Shown here piece by piece: positions 29,649-33,258 of a DNA stretch of 49,239 nt; the first letter of the stretch is position 1, and every line of letters begins with the position of its first letter. The notes beneath the pieces were generated by a model. That model searched no databases and was not told the origin of the DNA. It saw nothing but the letters and a program-made list of their open reading frames with translations. Source of the DNA: an uncultured Clostridia bacterium (GTDB lineage: Bacteria > Bacillota > Clostridia > Lachnospirales > Bianqueaceae); assembly GCA_944376225.1 (NCBI GenBank), contig CALWBZ010000022.1:1-49239 (forward strand), in the 5' to 3' direction. A program made the position numbers and the translations under genes.

Positions 29649-29703
29649 TATACTGCAATGGATGAGTCACTTTTAACTTGGTTTAATGTTTGCAGGGTAT
29701 ACT
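29649..29703 (+). promoter_or_regulatory. Candidate -10 elements before the two-component operon
   Basis: TATACT occurs at 29649-29654 and again at 29698-29703. Neither has a good -35 element at 16-18 bases, so which is used, if either, is uncertain. Confidence 0.35.
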
Positions 29704-29732
29704 GGTATAGAATACAGGAAGGAGGAAGAAAC

Positions 29733-30407
29733 TTGAAGTTATTATTAGTGGAAGACGAGGTCTCCCTGTCCAGAGCCATTACGACGATCCTGCAGAAGAA
29801 CGGGTACACGGTAGAAGCCGTATATAATGGAAGGGACGCCCTGGAATACATGGAGGCAGAGGAGTACGACGGCGTCATCCTGGACCTGATGCTGCCGGAG
29901 ACGGACGGAATCACGGTTTTGCAGACGGTGAGGAAAAAAGGAAATAAGACGCCGATCCTGATCCTGACCGCGAAGGCGGAGGTGGATGATAAGGTATTGG
30001 GACTGGACAGCGGCGCCAATGACTATCTGACAAAACCCTTCGCCATACAGGAACTCATGGCCCGTATCCGCGCCATGACCCGGAATCCGTGGACCCAGAC
30101 GGATACCCGCCTGCGCTTCGGAAACCTGACGCTGGATTGCGCCACCTTTGAACTGTCCTCCCCCAGCGGCAGTTTTCGTTTGGCGAACAAGGAGTTTCAG
30201 ATGATGGAACTGTTTCTGCGTAATCCCAGGAAGCTGATCTCGACTAATCGGTTTATCGAGAGAATCTGGGGATATGACAGCGACGTGGAAGCCAGCGTGG
30301 TTTGGGTGTATATTTCCTATCTGCGGAAGAAACTGGCCTCCTTGGAGAGCAATGTCCAGATCAAGGCTGCGCGGAACGCGGGGTATTCATTGGAGGAATG
30401 CCCATGA
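29733..30407 (+). CDS. OmpR-family response regulator
   Basis: The 224-residue product has a receiver domain (LLLVEDEVSLSRAI, phospho-acceptor Asp51 in VILDLMLPETDG, Lys in TKPFA) and an OmpR/PhoB winged-helix DNA-binding domain (RLANKEFQMMELFLRNP, then VSVVWVYISYLRKKL-like end). The start is a TTG at 29733 with GGAAGGAGG upstream; no ATG fits the domain start. Its stop overlaps the kinase start (ATGA). The targets are unknown; the genes that follow the kinase have their own promoter. Confidence 0.92.
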   Translation: MKLLLVEDEVSLSRAITTILQKNGYTVEAVYNGRDALEYMEAEEYDGVILDLMLPETDGITVLQTVRKKGNKTPILILTAKAEVDDKVLGLDSGANDYLTKPFAIQELMARIRAMTRNPWTQTDTRLRFGNLTLDCATFELSSPSGSFRLANKEFQMMELFLRNPRKLISTNRFIERIWGYDSDVEASVVWVYISYLRKKLASLESNVQIKAARNAGYSLEECP

Positions 30408-31627
30408 TCCGCAGATTACGCATTCGATTGACGCTCGTGGCCGCCGCTTCCCTCCTGGGTGTCTTGCTTCTCATCATGGGTACGGTCAATACCCTGAACT
30501 ACTGGCAGATCCTGCGGGAGGCGGATCAGATCCTAAACATACTCAAGGAGAACCAGGGAAAGTTTCCTCAGCGAGAGCCGGAAAAGGGGGAATGGGCGCC
30601 GGGCCGAATGTCTCCCGAGCTTCCCTTTGAATCCCGGTACTTCTCTGTATTGTTAACGGAAGAGGGAGAAGTCATCGCGACGGACACGGGCCGAATCGCC
30701 GCCGTGGATGAGGAGAGCGCGGCGGAGCTGGCGACGGAAGTTTTACGGGGAAATCAGGAAAAAGGCATGCGGGGCATATACCGATTCGCGCGGTATGAGG
30801 AAGAGGGCGGGATCCGGATCATCTTCCTGGACTGTTCCCGCAATCTATCTACTTTCCGGTCTTTCTTGTGGGCCAGCATCGCAATCTGCCTGTCGGGCCT
30901 AATAGCGGTGTCCGCCCTGATTCTTCTGTTTTCCGGACGCATCATTCGTCCGATTGTGGAGAGTTACGAGAAACAAAAGCGTTTCATCACCGACGCGGGG
31001 CATGAGCTTCGTACCCCGATTACGATCATCGACGCGGACACGGAGGTTCTGCGGTTGGAGACGGGAGAAAACGAATGGCTGTCGGACATTCAATTGCAAA
31101 CCAAGAGGCTCACGGCTCTCACTAAGGACCTGGTGTATCTCTCTAGGATGGAAGAGGATCAGAAGCAGCGTCCCCGGCTGGAATTTTCTCTGTCCGATCT
31201 GGCGGAGGAGACGGCGCAGTCCTTCCAGGGGCCGGCCCGAGTGCAGAACAAGGATTTTCGGTTCCGGATCGAGCCTATGCTTTCCTATACCGGGGACGAG
31301 AACGCGCTGCGCCAGCTTTTTTCCATTTTACTGGATAACGCGCTGAAATACTCGCCGGAAGGCGGACGGATCCTGTTCGGGGTGGAGAAGCAGGGAAAAA
31401 CGATTTCCCTATGGGTGGAAAACAGCACAAAAGAAGCGCTGCCACAGGATCTTAACCGGCTTTTTGAGCGCTTCTACCGAGGGGATCCCTCGAGAAATTC
31501 CCAATCCGGCGGTTATGGCCTGGGGCTATCCATCGCCCAGGCGATTGTGACGGCCCATAAAGGCAGGATCACCGCGAAGCAAGGCAGTGAAGGAAACCTG
31601 CGCGTATGTGTCAGCCTCCCGGATTGA
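30404..31627 (+). CDS. Sensor histidine kinase
   Basis: The 407-residue product has two membrane spans (about 10-32 and 152-178) around an extracellular loop of about 115 residues with no motif I recognise. The HisKA domain holds DAGHELRTPITIID (His200), followed by an ATPase domain with LLDNALKYSPEGG, VENS in the usual D-x-G position, and GGYGLGLSIAQAIV. There is no clear HAMP domain. The ATG at 30404 overlaps the regulator's TGA and has GGAGG seven bases upstream. It is the cognate kinase of the upstream regulator. Confidence 0.92.
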   Translation: MIRRLRIRLTLVAAASLLGVLLLIMGTVNTLNYWQILREADQILNILKENQGKFPQREPEKGEWAPGRMSPELPFESRYFSVLLTEEGEVIATDTGRIAAVDEESAAELATEVLRGNQEKGMRGIYRFARYEEEGGIRIIFLDCSRNLSTFRSFLWASIAICLSGLIAVSALILLFSGRIIRPIVESYEKQKRFITDAGHELRTPITIIDADTEVLRLETGENEWLSDIQLQTKRLTALTKDLVYLSRMEEDQKQRPRLEFSLSDLAEETAQSFQGPARVQNKDFRFRIEPMLSYTGDENALRQLFSILLDNALKYSPEGGRILFGVEKQGKTISLWVENSTKEALPQDLNRLFERFYRGDPSRNSQSGGYGLGLSIAQAIVTAHKGRITAKQGSEGNLRVCVSLPD

Positions 31628-31689: not shown

Positions 31690-32229
31690 ATGAAAAGTAG
31701 GCGTATTTGGATGATTTTGGTGATATTGGCGGTGTTTCTATGCGGCGCTTGTCAGGAACAGGAGAAAGAGGCGGGTGTACTCTCGCGGTTTTCCACGACG
31801 GATTTGGAGGGAGAAACTGTGGATGAGACGGCGTTTCAAGATTATGATGTGACGATGATCAATATATGGACCACGTATTGTGGGTACTGCCTCAATGAGA
31901 TGAGCGCGTTGGGAGAGTTGTCCAGAGAGTATGAAGACAAAGGGGTACGGATCATGGGAATGGTGACGGACGTGATCAATTCGGACGGGACGCTTAGTGA
32001 CTCTCAGATGGATTTAGCCAGAGAAATCGTTTCCGGAACCGGAGCGGATTATACGCACATGGTACCTTCCGAAAGTCTGGCGGCGCTTTTGAGGCAGATC
32101 TACGCGGTGCCCACAACCCTTTTTGTGGATAAAGAGGGGAAACAGGTAGGGTATGCCTATACGCAGGCGATGAGCAAAGATCAGTGGATCCAGGCGATCG
32201 AAGAAGCCTTGAGTCAGGTGCGGTCATGA
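31690..32229 (+). CDS. TlpA/ResA-like thioredoxin-fold lipoprotein
   Basis: The 179-residue product has a lipoprotein signal peptide (lipobox FLCGAC) and an extracytoplasmic thioredoxin-like domain with the redox pair Cys64 and Cys67 (IWTTYCGYCLNEM) and a cis-Pro-type segment YAVPTTLFVDKEG. Relatives reduce or oxidise thiols outside the membrane, for example in cytochrome c maturation. AAGGAGG precedes the ATG. Its TGA overlaps the ATG of the next, 48-residue gene (ATGA), so the two are coupled. Confidence 0.9.
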   Translation: MKSRRIWMILVILAVFLCGACQEQEKEAGVLSRFSTTDLEGETVDETAFQDYDVTMINIWTTYCGYCLNEMSALGELSREYEDKGVRIMGMVTDVINSDGTLSDSQMDLAREIVSGTGADYTHMVPSESLAALLRQIYAVPTTLFVDKEGKQVGYAYTQAMSKDQWIQAIEEALSQVRS

Positions 32230-32372
32230 CAGAGAAAAGAAGAAACGGGATCGCGAGAGGGCTGCTTGCGATCGGTATCATTTTCATGGCAATCGGCTTT
32301 TTCCGGGGAGAAACGGAAGTGGTTTTGCGTCAGGCCGTGAATATCTGTCTGGAGTGTATTGGCATTGGGTAA
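32226..32372 (+). CDS. CD1871A-family CXXC membrane peptide
   Basis: The 48-residue product has a basic start (TEKRRNG), one hydrophobic segment (GLLAIGIIFMAIGFF) and a C-terminal CXXC in VNICLECIGIG. I recognise this as the small CD1871A family known from clostridial genomes, always very short with this ending. It overlaps the TlpA-like gene by 4 bases and the polyferredoxin gene by 14 bases, so all three are probably made together. The CXXC could pass electrons or hold a metal; its function is not established. Confidence 0.85.
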   Translation: MTEKRRNGIARGLLAIGIIFMAIGFFRGETEVVLRQAVNICLECIGIG

Positions 32373-33258
32373 GCTAAGGGGGTGGATCGGGAGGCATTTG
32401 CGCGGCTGTGTTCAGTTCATGGCCACGGCCCTCGGCAACGGATACGCAGCCGGTTTTCTCCACGGCAGCATCTATCGGGGGGATACGAAGGCGCTCTGTC
32501 TGCCGGGACTCAACTGCTATTCCTGTCCCGGCGCGCTGGGCGCGTGTCCTATCGGCGCGTTTCAGGCGGTCATCGGGAATAGGAATTATCATTTTGCGTT
32601 TTATGTGGCGGGTTTTCTGATTTTTGTAGGCGCGTTGGCGGGGCGTTTTGTTTGCGGTTGGCTCTGTCCCTTCGGCTGGATCCAAGAGCTTCTCTATAAG
32701 ATTCCTTTTGTGAAGAAACTGCGCAGGCTCCCCGGTGAAAAGTGGCTTTGCCGTATTAAATATGGAGTATTGCTGATTTTCGTGATCCTGCTGCCTATGA
32801 CGGTGCTCGATCTGGTGGGACAGGGCAGCCCATGGTTCTGCAAATACATATGTCCATCGGGAACGCTGATGGCCGGATTTCCGTTGGCGGTTCTGAATCC
32901 TTCCATACGAGCGGGAATGGGTGGGCTCTTTTTGTGGAAGACGGCGATTCTCGTAGTTGTGGCGCTGCTTTCTCTTTTGGTCTACCGTCCTTTTTGTCGG
33001 TATCTGTGTCCTTTGGGCGCGGTGTATGGGTTGTTTAATCCTGTGGCGGTGTATCGTTATCGTATCGACGAACATCGTTGTACAAAATGCGGGCTTTGCC
33101 AGAAAGCGTGTAAACTGGATATTCCGGTGTATCTAAAACCTAATAGCATGGAATGCATACGGTGCGGTGAATGCAAAAGGGCATGTCCCCAGGAGGCCAT
33201 TCTCTGTGGAAAGAGGAAGGATGTTTCAAAAAAGGAAAGAAAAATCATAAACGTATGA
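32359..33258 (+). CDS. Membrane polyferredoxin (4Fe-4S binding, NapH-like)
   Basis: The 299-residue product starts at a TTG with GGAG four bases upstream. About five membrane spans are broken by cysteine motifs: LNCYSCPGALGACPIGAF, then FVCGWLCPFGWIQ, then CKYICPSGTLMA, and CRYLCPLGAVYG. Two classic [4Fe-4S] motifs end the protein (CTKCGLCQKACK and CIRCGECKRACP). NapH/RnfB-like proteins carry electrons across or along the membrane. Coupled to the TlpA-like lipoprotein and the CXXC peptide, it could feed electrons to the outside thiol protein (inference). Confidence 0.9.
   Translation: MALGKLRGWIGRHLRGCVQFMATALGNGYAAGFLHGSIYRGDTKALCLPGLNCYSCPGALGACPIGAFQAVIGNRNYHFAFYVAGFLIFVGALAGRFVCGWLCPFGWIQELLYKIPFVKKLRRLPGEKWLCRIKYGVLLIFVILLPMTVLDLVGQGSPWFCKYICPSGTLMAGFPLAVLNPSIRAGMGGLFLWKTAILVVVALLSLLVYRPFCRYLCPLGAVYGLFNPVAVYRYRIDEHRCTKCGLCQKACKLDIPVYLKPNSMECIRCGECKRACPQEAILCGKRKDVSKKERKIINV

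Follow-up and report, generated by a model that had tools for sequence, protein, structure and literature searches.

A membrane polyferredoxin and its 48-residue CXXC peptide as the probable electron route to a TlpA-like protein in a Clostridia bacterium

In the DsbD/CcdA systems that work with TlpA, ResA or Etrx, electrons from the cytoplasm reach a thioredoxin-fold lipoprotein through a membrane protein, by way of an intramembrane cysteine pair that is fed by cytoplasmic thioredoxin. Ferredoxin:thioredoxin reductase (FTR), which is soluble and cytoplasmic, holds a [4Fe-4S] cluster beside a disulfide and turns one-electron into two-electron chemistry. Membrane proteins of the NapH/MauN type (NapH, NosR and CcoG/YccM; we take CcoG to be of the same kind as NapH) combine a repeat of a transmembrane helix and CxxxCP with two C-terminal ferredoxin motifs. 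NapH-like proteins are described with varied partners in a passage of PMC8238504, and a passage of PMC7558416 presents CcoG as a cupric reductase, a precedent for reductase activity in a protein of this kind. Part of PMC8238504 also describes DUF4266, a small DsbD-associated extracytoplasmic CXC protein that works with DsbD and the flavinylated DUF3570. For the DsbD/CcdA type itself, an excerpt of PMC3914529 gives the CcdA1/2-Etrx1/2-SpMsrAB2 system of pneumococcus.

We analyzed a stretch of 49,239 nucleotides from an uncultured Clostridia bacterium (the window), in which three adjacent genes encode a TlpA-like protein, a small membrane peptide and a membrane polyferredoxin. This triplet is probably a membrane device in which electrons, carried via iron-sulfur clusters and the 48-residue peptide, keep an outside thioredoxin-like protein reduced. 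It has the following features:

31690-32229, + strand: TlpA/ResA-like thioredoxin-fold protein, predicted lipoprotein (lipobox LCGAC, Cys21)
31879-31890, + strand: TlpA active site CGYC, residues 64-67, read from the sequence
32226-32372, + strand: single-span membrane peptide of 48 aa, CD1871A family (NF040920), predicted N-terminus in and C-terminal CXXC out
32346-32357, + strand: CLEC with peptide Cys41 and Cys44, followed by IGIG-COOH, read from the sequence
32359-33258, + strand: membrane polyferredoxin, NapH-like core plus 6 extra Cys predicted on the outer face (PF12801 68 bits, PF00037 36.7 bits)
32497-32550, + strand: motif A, CLPGLNCYSCPGALGACP, 4 Cys, outer face by predicted topology, Cys kept in 100-101 of 101 homologues
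32653-32670, + strand: motif B, CGWLCP, predicted inner face, Cys in 101/101, positive loop after it
32839-32856, + strand: motif C, CKYICP, predicted outer face, Cys in 101/101
32995-33012, + strand: motif D, CRYLCP, predicted inner face, Cys in 100/101 with one gap
33079-33186, + strand: two [4Fe-4S] ferredoxin motifs, predicted cytoplasmic, Cys in 99/101 with two gaps (PF00037 in two stretches)

An ORF check confirmed that the three genes overlap. The end of the TlpA gene (32229) and the start of the peptide gene (32226) share a 4-base ATGA, and the polyferredoxin start codon, a TTG at 32359, lies within the peptide gene, whose stop is at 32372. This arrangement is not due to chance, because the peptide scored 62.1 bits (E 3.1e-17) against NCBIfam NF040920, the CD1871A family, which has a curated cut-off of 32 bits, and hundreds of loci have the same layout. 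The first-pass annotation had described three overlapping genes and six cysteine groups in the polyferredoxin, and both descriptions match what we found (motif A with four Cys, the pairs B, C and D, and two 4-Cys ferredoxin groups). It had also let the peptide end in CLEC; the motif is there, but the residues IGIG come after it. Directly upstream of the triplet, window positions 29658-31627 hold two-component genes that we take to encode a response regulator and a histidine kinase. Similar genes were near only a handful of 116 compared loci and are no regular feature of triplet loci.

A Pfam search placed the TlpA-like protein above the cut-offs of PF08534 (38 bits) and PF00578 (38.9 bits), and it has the Redoxin/AhpC-TSA fold together with a CXXC. 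Its score against the ResA model NF002854 (46.7 bits) was under the 170-bit cut-off. The lipobox LCGAC is non-canonical, and a loose lipobox pattern was present in 120 of 167 TlpA homologues, fragments counted. This is the sole TlpA-type redoxin found in the assembly; a second PF08534 match resembles a Bcp-type peroxiredoxin by sequence. At one other locus (L135:4681-5868) a rhodanese domain (PF00581, 71.7 bits) precedes the TlpA partner in a single fused protein, a hint of extracytoplasmic sulfane-sulfur chemistry. Just upstream of TlpA in a Treponema MAG lies the gene of a 665-aa UGSC-family protein (PF24696, 64 bits; L181:3350-5347) that looks exported. The same cluster occurs in 3 loci, and the protein is a possible substrate.

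The CD1871A family has so far been named without a function: we found neither a function nor an account of the triplet in the open-access literature. The name suggests that the family was called after a neighbour of the CD1871 gene. For C. difficile, part of PMC12772354 lists CD18710 as lying in a conjugative transposon, and a passage of PMC11326576 calls CD1871 an ABC transporter permease. The window peptide has the C-terminal CXXC in its tail CLECIGIG. Across the paired peptides both Cys are kept in 271/272 sequences, both Gly in 271/272 and Glu43 in 266/272. The charge of 244 free peptides follows the positive-inside pattern: in 221 the N-side carries more positive charge, and in 22 both sides are equal. 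At loci with a TlpA-polyferredoxin fusion (L031-L033 and L116-L118), the CXXC tail ends larger multi-span proteins, encoded by ORFs of 273-303 aa and 146 aa, respectively; a Pfam search of these proteins gave nothing beyond a weak hit.

We searched 391 genomes of the class twice, with NF040920 for the peptide and with the window polyferredoxin for its family, which we defined as E <= 1e-50, a cut that we placed at a score gap. Below this cut were matches of about 1e-34 in two genomes and a second piece of a gene already counted, and all others were at 1e-21 or worse. The peptide was present in 71 genomes and the family polyferredoxin in 70, and the two sets differ only by genome G168, whose peptide has lost the CXXC and shows SLHY in its place. 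Loci selected by the polyferredoxin alone contained the peptide in 101/102 cases (250 genomes of the family of G384), 31/31 (the genus of G384) and 80/80 (named GTDB-contig loci), these sets sharing a few genomes. The sole miss, L225, runs off its contig end. Conversely, only 2/73 peptide loci had no polyferredoxin in the stretch. One of them, L071, has SLHY instead of CXXC and lies in a one-contig genome whose best polyferredoxin match has an E of only 5e-16. The other (L072:103-309) is a peptide copy with a divergent C-terminus near the end of a 3.3 kb contig, which probably reflects an assembly break and not a true variant, and its genome has a polyferredoxin elsewhere (L307). Among 285 pairs the peptide was ahead of the polyferredoxin in 268, fused to it in 12 and scored as behind it in 5, two of which (L081 and L204) are artefacts of a long ORF start. 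The polyferredoxin was also detected in 93/250 genomes of the family of G384 and the peptide in 70/100 of the family of G333, and eight loci with titles that name Treponema, Treponemataceae or Spirochaetaceae had both.

The invariant unit is therefore the peptide with the polyferredoxin, an obligate pairing supported by computation, and TlpA is the usual third partner. A TlpA profile match was present in 60/71, 88/102, 29/31 and 78/80 polyferredoxin loci. It was absent from 11/71, 14/102, 2/31 and 2/80 of the fetched stretches, which reach 1.5 to 6 kb per side, are in some cases cut by contig ends and may hold adjacent redoxins that score under the threshold. The TlpA family was beside 87 of the 116 loci compared, and the next neighbour family was beside 8. 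No conserved substrate gene was found next door, as the most frequent neighbour after TlpA reached only these 8/116 loci. At three loci (L090, L214 and L215) the pair directly follows an ABC/FtsX-type transporter gene, not TlpA. These neighbours recall the ABC permease CD1871 of C. difficile as it appears in parts of PMC12772354 and PMC11326576.

Natural fusions join the same parts. In 10 genomes, all of one genus, the polyferredoxin ends in the peptide (12 loci, two of them fetched twice: L034/L073, L035/L107, L103-L106 and L108-L111). In 10 other loci (L031-L033, L085, L114-L118 and L225) the polyferredoxin runs via an additional hydrophobic segment into a TlpA domain. Co-occurrence and fusions back the earlier proposal that the three proteins act together. 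To its question of how strictly the three genes co-occur, the answer is that peptide and polyferredoxin almost always go together, whereas TlpA is usual but not invariant.

The polyferredoxin matches Fer4_5 and Fer4 in Pfam and is the only Fer4_5 protein of the assembly. All 18 Cys of its six groups are conserved: each is present in 99-101 of 101 homologues, and the exceptions are gaps and a single W at C63. With E. coli NapH it shares the B and D CxxxCP pairs and the two ferredoxin motifs; NapH has only these 12 Cys and one N-terminal Cys, and is without motifs A and C. The NapH/MauN model TIGR02163 gave 61.4 bits against a cut-off of 213.05, with a match that begins at residue 88. If TlpA is extracytoplasmic, the fused TlpA domain is outside and the ferredoxin end inside, which by parity assigns B and D to the inner face and A and C to the outer face. 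Loop charge agrees with this topology (mean K+R of 6.3 after B vs 2.1 in loop C). The loop of motif A counts against it, being net positive (K+R 4.0, D+E 0.5), which is unusual for an outside loop. The segments TM1 plus motif B and TM3 plus motif D form an internal repeat (hhalign probability 93.4%, E 2.4e-7), and B and D therefore likely share one [4Fe-4S] cluster.

Twenty further loci of the class were examined. Seventeen hold distant relatives without motif A, as judged by a spacing pattern that can overlook variants. L307 holds a member of the family, and the remaining two, L291 and L292, hold a cousin whose motif A is wider-spaced and was overlooked by the pattern. This cousin (L291:3650-4783 and L292:3650-4783) is 377 aa long and matches at an E of about 1e-34. 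None of the six outer Cys is missing, its peptide-like N-terminal helix has no CXXC, and the stretch shows no TlpA match. Its gene lies just downstream of another ORF, which looks to us like chorismate synthase.

Mean-field co-variation was computed on 272 unique pairs (~206 effective sequences), 281/285 having passed the gap filter. The top inter-protein pair was peptide Ile47 with polyferredoxin residue 187, which ranked 6 among all pairs (z 9.84). Eight random pairings reached maxima of only z 4.65-5.4, and the real pairing had 26 pairs above z 4 vs 2-6, although random pairing strips shared ancestry too. Other pairs above z 4 link the region around the peptide CXXC with residues 183, 186 and 187, which follow motif C, and the part preceding the CXXC with residues 45, 59, 62 and 79-81, at motif A and the start of TM1. 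At z > 3, the partners of the outer half of the peptide lay in outer segments in 36/58 cases (p 2e-5), compared with 7/40 for the inner half and a base of 0.35. The Ile47-187 pair is missing from the top list of a Lachnospiraceae-only subset (130), and several strong pairs (e.g., 28-121 and 30-114) disagree with the topology. Alignment A1, made from free peptides and polyferredoxins, was dropped because MAFFT set the peptide Cys on motif A; alignment A2, made from natural fusions and polyferredoxins, replaced it. Charge, fusions and co-variation put the peptide CXXC on the predicted outside, beside the six outer-face Cys, and not on the wrong side, which would have spoken against the earlier proposal.

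A confident AlphaFold model of a natural fusion (pLDDT 91.7, pTM 0.88) contains a transmembrane helix at 277-299 and a second helix at 302-317 that ends at the CXXC. The peptide tail is less certain, with a pLDDT of 59-80 over the last 20 residues. A fold search with the whole fusion gave only weak ferredoxin-domain matches and no solved relative of the membrane part. The membrane domain alone had no match, which is not proof of a new fold. When PDB sequences were searched with a profile, the best 60 of 114 matches aligned essentially with the ferredoxin part.

The DsbD/CcdA membrane domains PF02683 (DsbD_TM) and PF13386 (DsbD_2) were not found in the window's assembly, which is 94.6% complete, and neither were VKOR or the DsbA family. 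The statement that no CcdA or DsbD is seen thus extends beyond the window to the whole assembly. Across the class, PF02683 occurred in 21/70 genomes with the family polyferredoxin vs 175/321 without it (odds ratio 0.36, p 2e-4, uncorrected for ancestry). Some genomes with the system thus keep a CcdA-type domain, although it is depleted among them, and this counts in part against the earlier proposal. The first-pass annotation had called the triplet an anaerobic counterpart of DsbD. With CcdA in 21/70 genomes, the system is either an alternative to CcdA or runs in parallel with it, and does not replace it strictly.

Topology and fusions suggest that electrons would pass across the membrane to a thioredoxin-fold protein. 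We think it reasonably probable that the triplet is a ferredoxin-level transmembrane dithiol reductase for TlpA. The gene unit, the obligate pairing, the topology, the contact face, the fusions and the absence of DsbD/CcdA from this genome have computational support; from these features we infer its clusters, its donor, the flow and direction of electrons, the reduction of TlpA and the final substrates. Low-potential electrons would enter the two cytoplasmic ferredoxin clusters, move on to a cluster that motifs B and D would form in the inner leaflet and cross to the outer-face Cys of motifs A and C. From there they would reduce the CXXC of the peptide, which would be docked on the outer face as an obligate subunit. 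The TlpA lipoprotein would then be reduced by the peptide dithiol, or by a cluster beside the peptide, and would in turn reduce thiol-dependent proteins outside the cell. In such a chain, iron-sulfur wires would replace the cysteine-pair relay of the DsbD/CcdA membrane domain. Anaerobe ferredoxins are more reducing than thiol/disulfide couples by textbook values, and this low potential argues for the outward direction.

Two versions of the last step stand: a redox CXXC beside a cluster, as in FTR, or a CXXC that is itself a cluster ligand in trans. In the ligand version, the peptide would give two ligands to an outer Fe-S cluster, from which electrons would jump to TlpA. The 18 invariant Cys of the polyferredoxin and the two of the peptide would make up five four-Cys clusters, E. 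coli NapH has a single N-terminal Cys beyond those of B, D and the ferredoxins, and co-variation links the peptide tail to residues next to motif A and to the loop after C. However, the L291/L292 cousin keeps six outer Cys without a peptide CXXC, so that motif C needs no completion in trans and a count of 20 Cys is ruled out as proof of a trans cluster. Redox dithiols, too, usually take the CXXC form. The cousin thus weakens the ligand version, which we consider rather unlikely, and favours the FTR-like one. A tentative proposal, which we regard as possible, makes the triplet a membrane-spanning analogue of FTR: the CXXC of a separate membrane peptide of ~48 residues would complete or gate an outer-face [4Fe-4S] site, so that single electrons from ferredoxin would be converted into the two-electron reduction of disulfides outside the cell.

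The pair might also be a general electron exporter, a role that has been proposed for NapH-like proteins and CcoG, with TlpA as one optional client and others (metal, transporter or reductase) equally important. The pair does stay together where no TlpA match is nearby, it follows ABC/FtsX genes at L090, L214 and L215, and parts of PMC8238504 and PMC7558416 describe NapH-like proteins that serve varied partners and a CcoG that reduces Cu(II). However, TlpA is by far the commonest neighbour (87/116 loci vs 8 for the next family) and is fused to the polyferredoxin in 10 loci, which argues that a role with many equal clients is unlikely. Electrons could also flow inward, in the manner of DsbB or VKOR, if extracytoplasmic thiols were oxidised and their electrons dumped into cytoplasmic ferredoxin. 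TlpA-type folds can in principle act either way, and the oxidising role is vacant in a genome where neither VKOR nor DsbA was found. Without DsbA, however, there is no obvious oxidase client, and the flow would run uphill given the reducing power of anaerobe ferredoxins. We consider it highly improbable.

Outward reduction of TlpA, the reading we prefer, gives a testable function to NF040920, a curated small-protein family that was so far only a name. It is a possible answer to how anaerobes without DsbD/CcdA keep TlpA-type proteins reduced and, if true, adds a further way of pushing reducing power across the membrane to thiols. If the CXXC does sit beside or inside an iron-sulfur site, this would be a chemically new way to bring electrons to thiols on the far side of a membrane. 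The pair is common, with the polyferredoxin in 70/391 sampled genomes of the class, and the complex is easy to produce and assay because fusions of two of its three parts occur naturally.

FTR would be the chemical analogue of the proposed last step, but it is soluble and cytoplasmic whereas the triplet is membrane-bound, and no FTR family was among the Pfam hits of the three proteins up to E 1. The polyferredoxin has the helix and CxxxCP repeat and the two C-terminal ferredoxin motifs of NapH/MauN-type proteins. It differs from them in scoring far under the NapH cut-off, in its six extra outer Cys and obligate CXXC peptide, and in having no conserved neighbour besides TlpA. Like DUF4266, as described in part of PMC8238504, the peptide is small, has a conserved C-terminal Cys motif and accompanies both a transmembrane electron carrier and a thioredoxin-like protein; DUF4266 has CXC and the CD1871A peptide CXXC, and the likeness noted here is one of motif and context. 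In DsbD/CcdA, likewise, a membrane protein hands cytoplasmic electrons to a thioredoxin-fold lipoprotein. The three proteins have neither DsbD_TM nor DsbD_2 (PF02683 and PF13386) among their Pfam hits, and an Fe-S polyferredoxin with a CXXC peptide stands in their place. The triplet works like the DsbD/CcdA-TlpA systems but is not a member of them.
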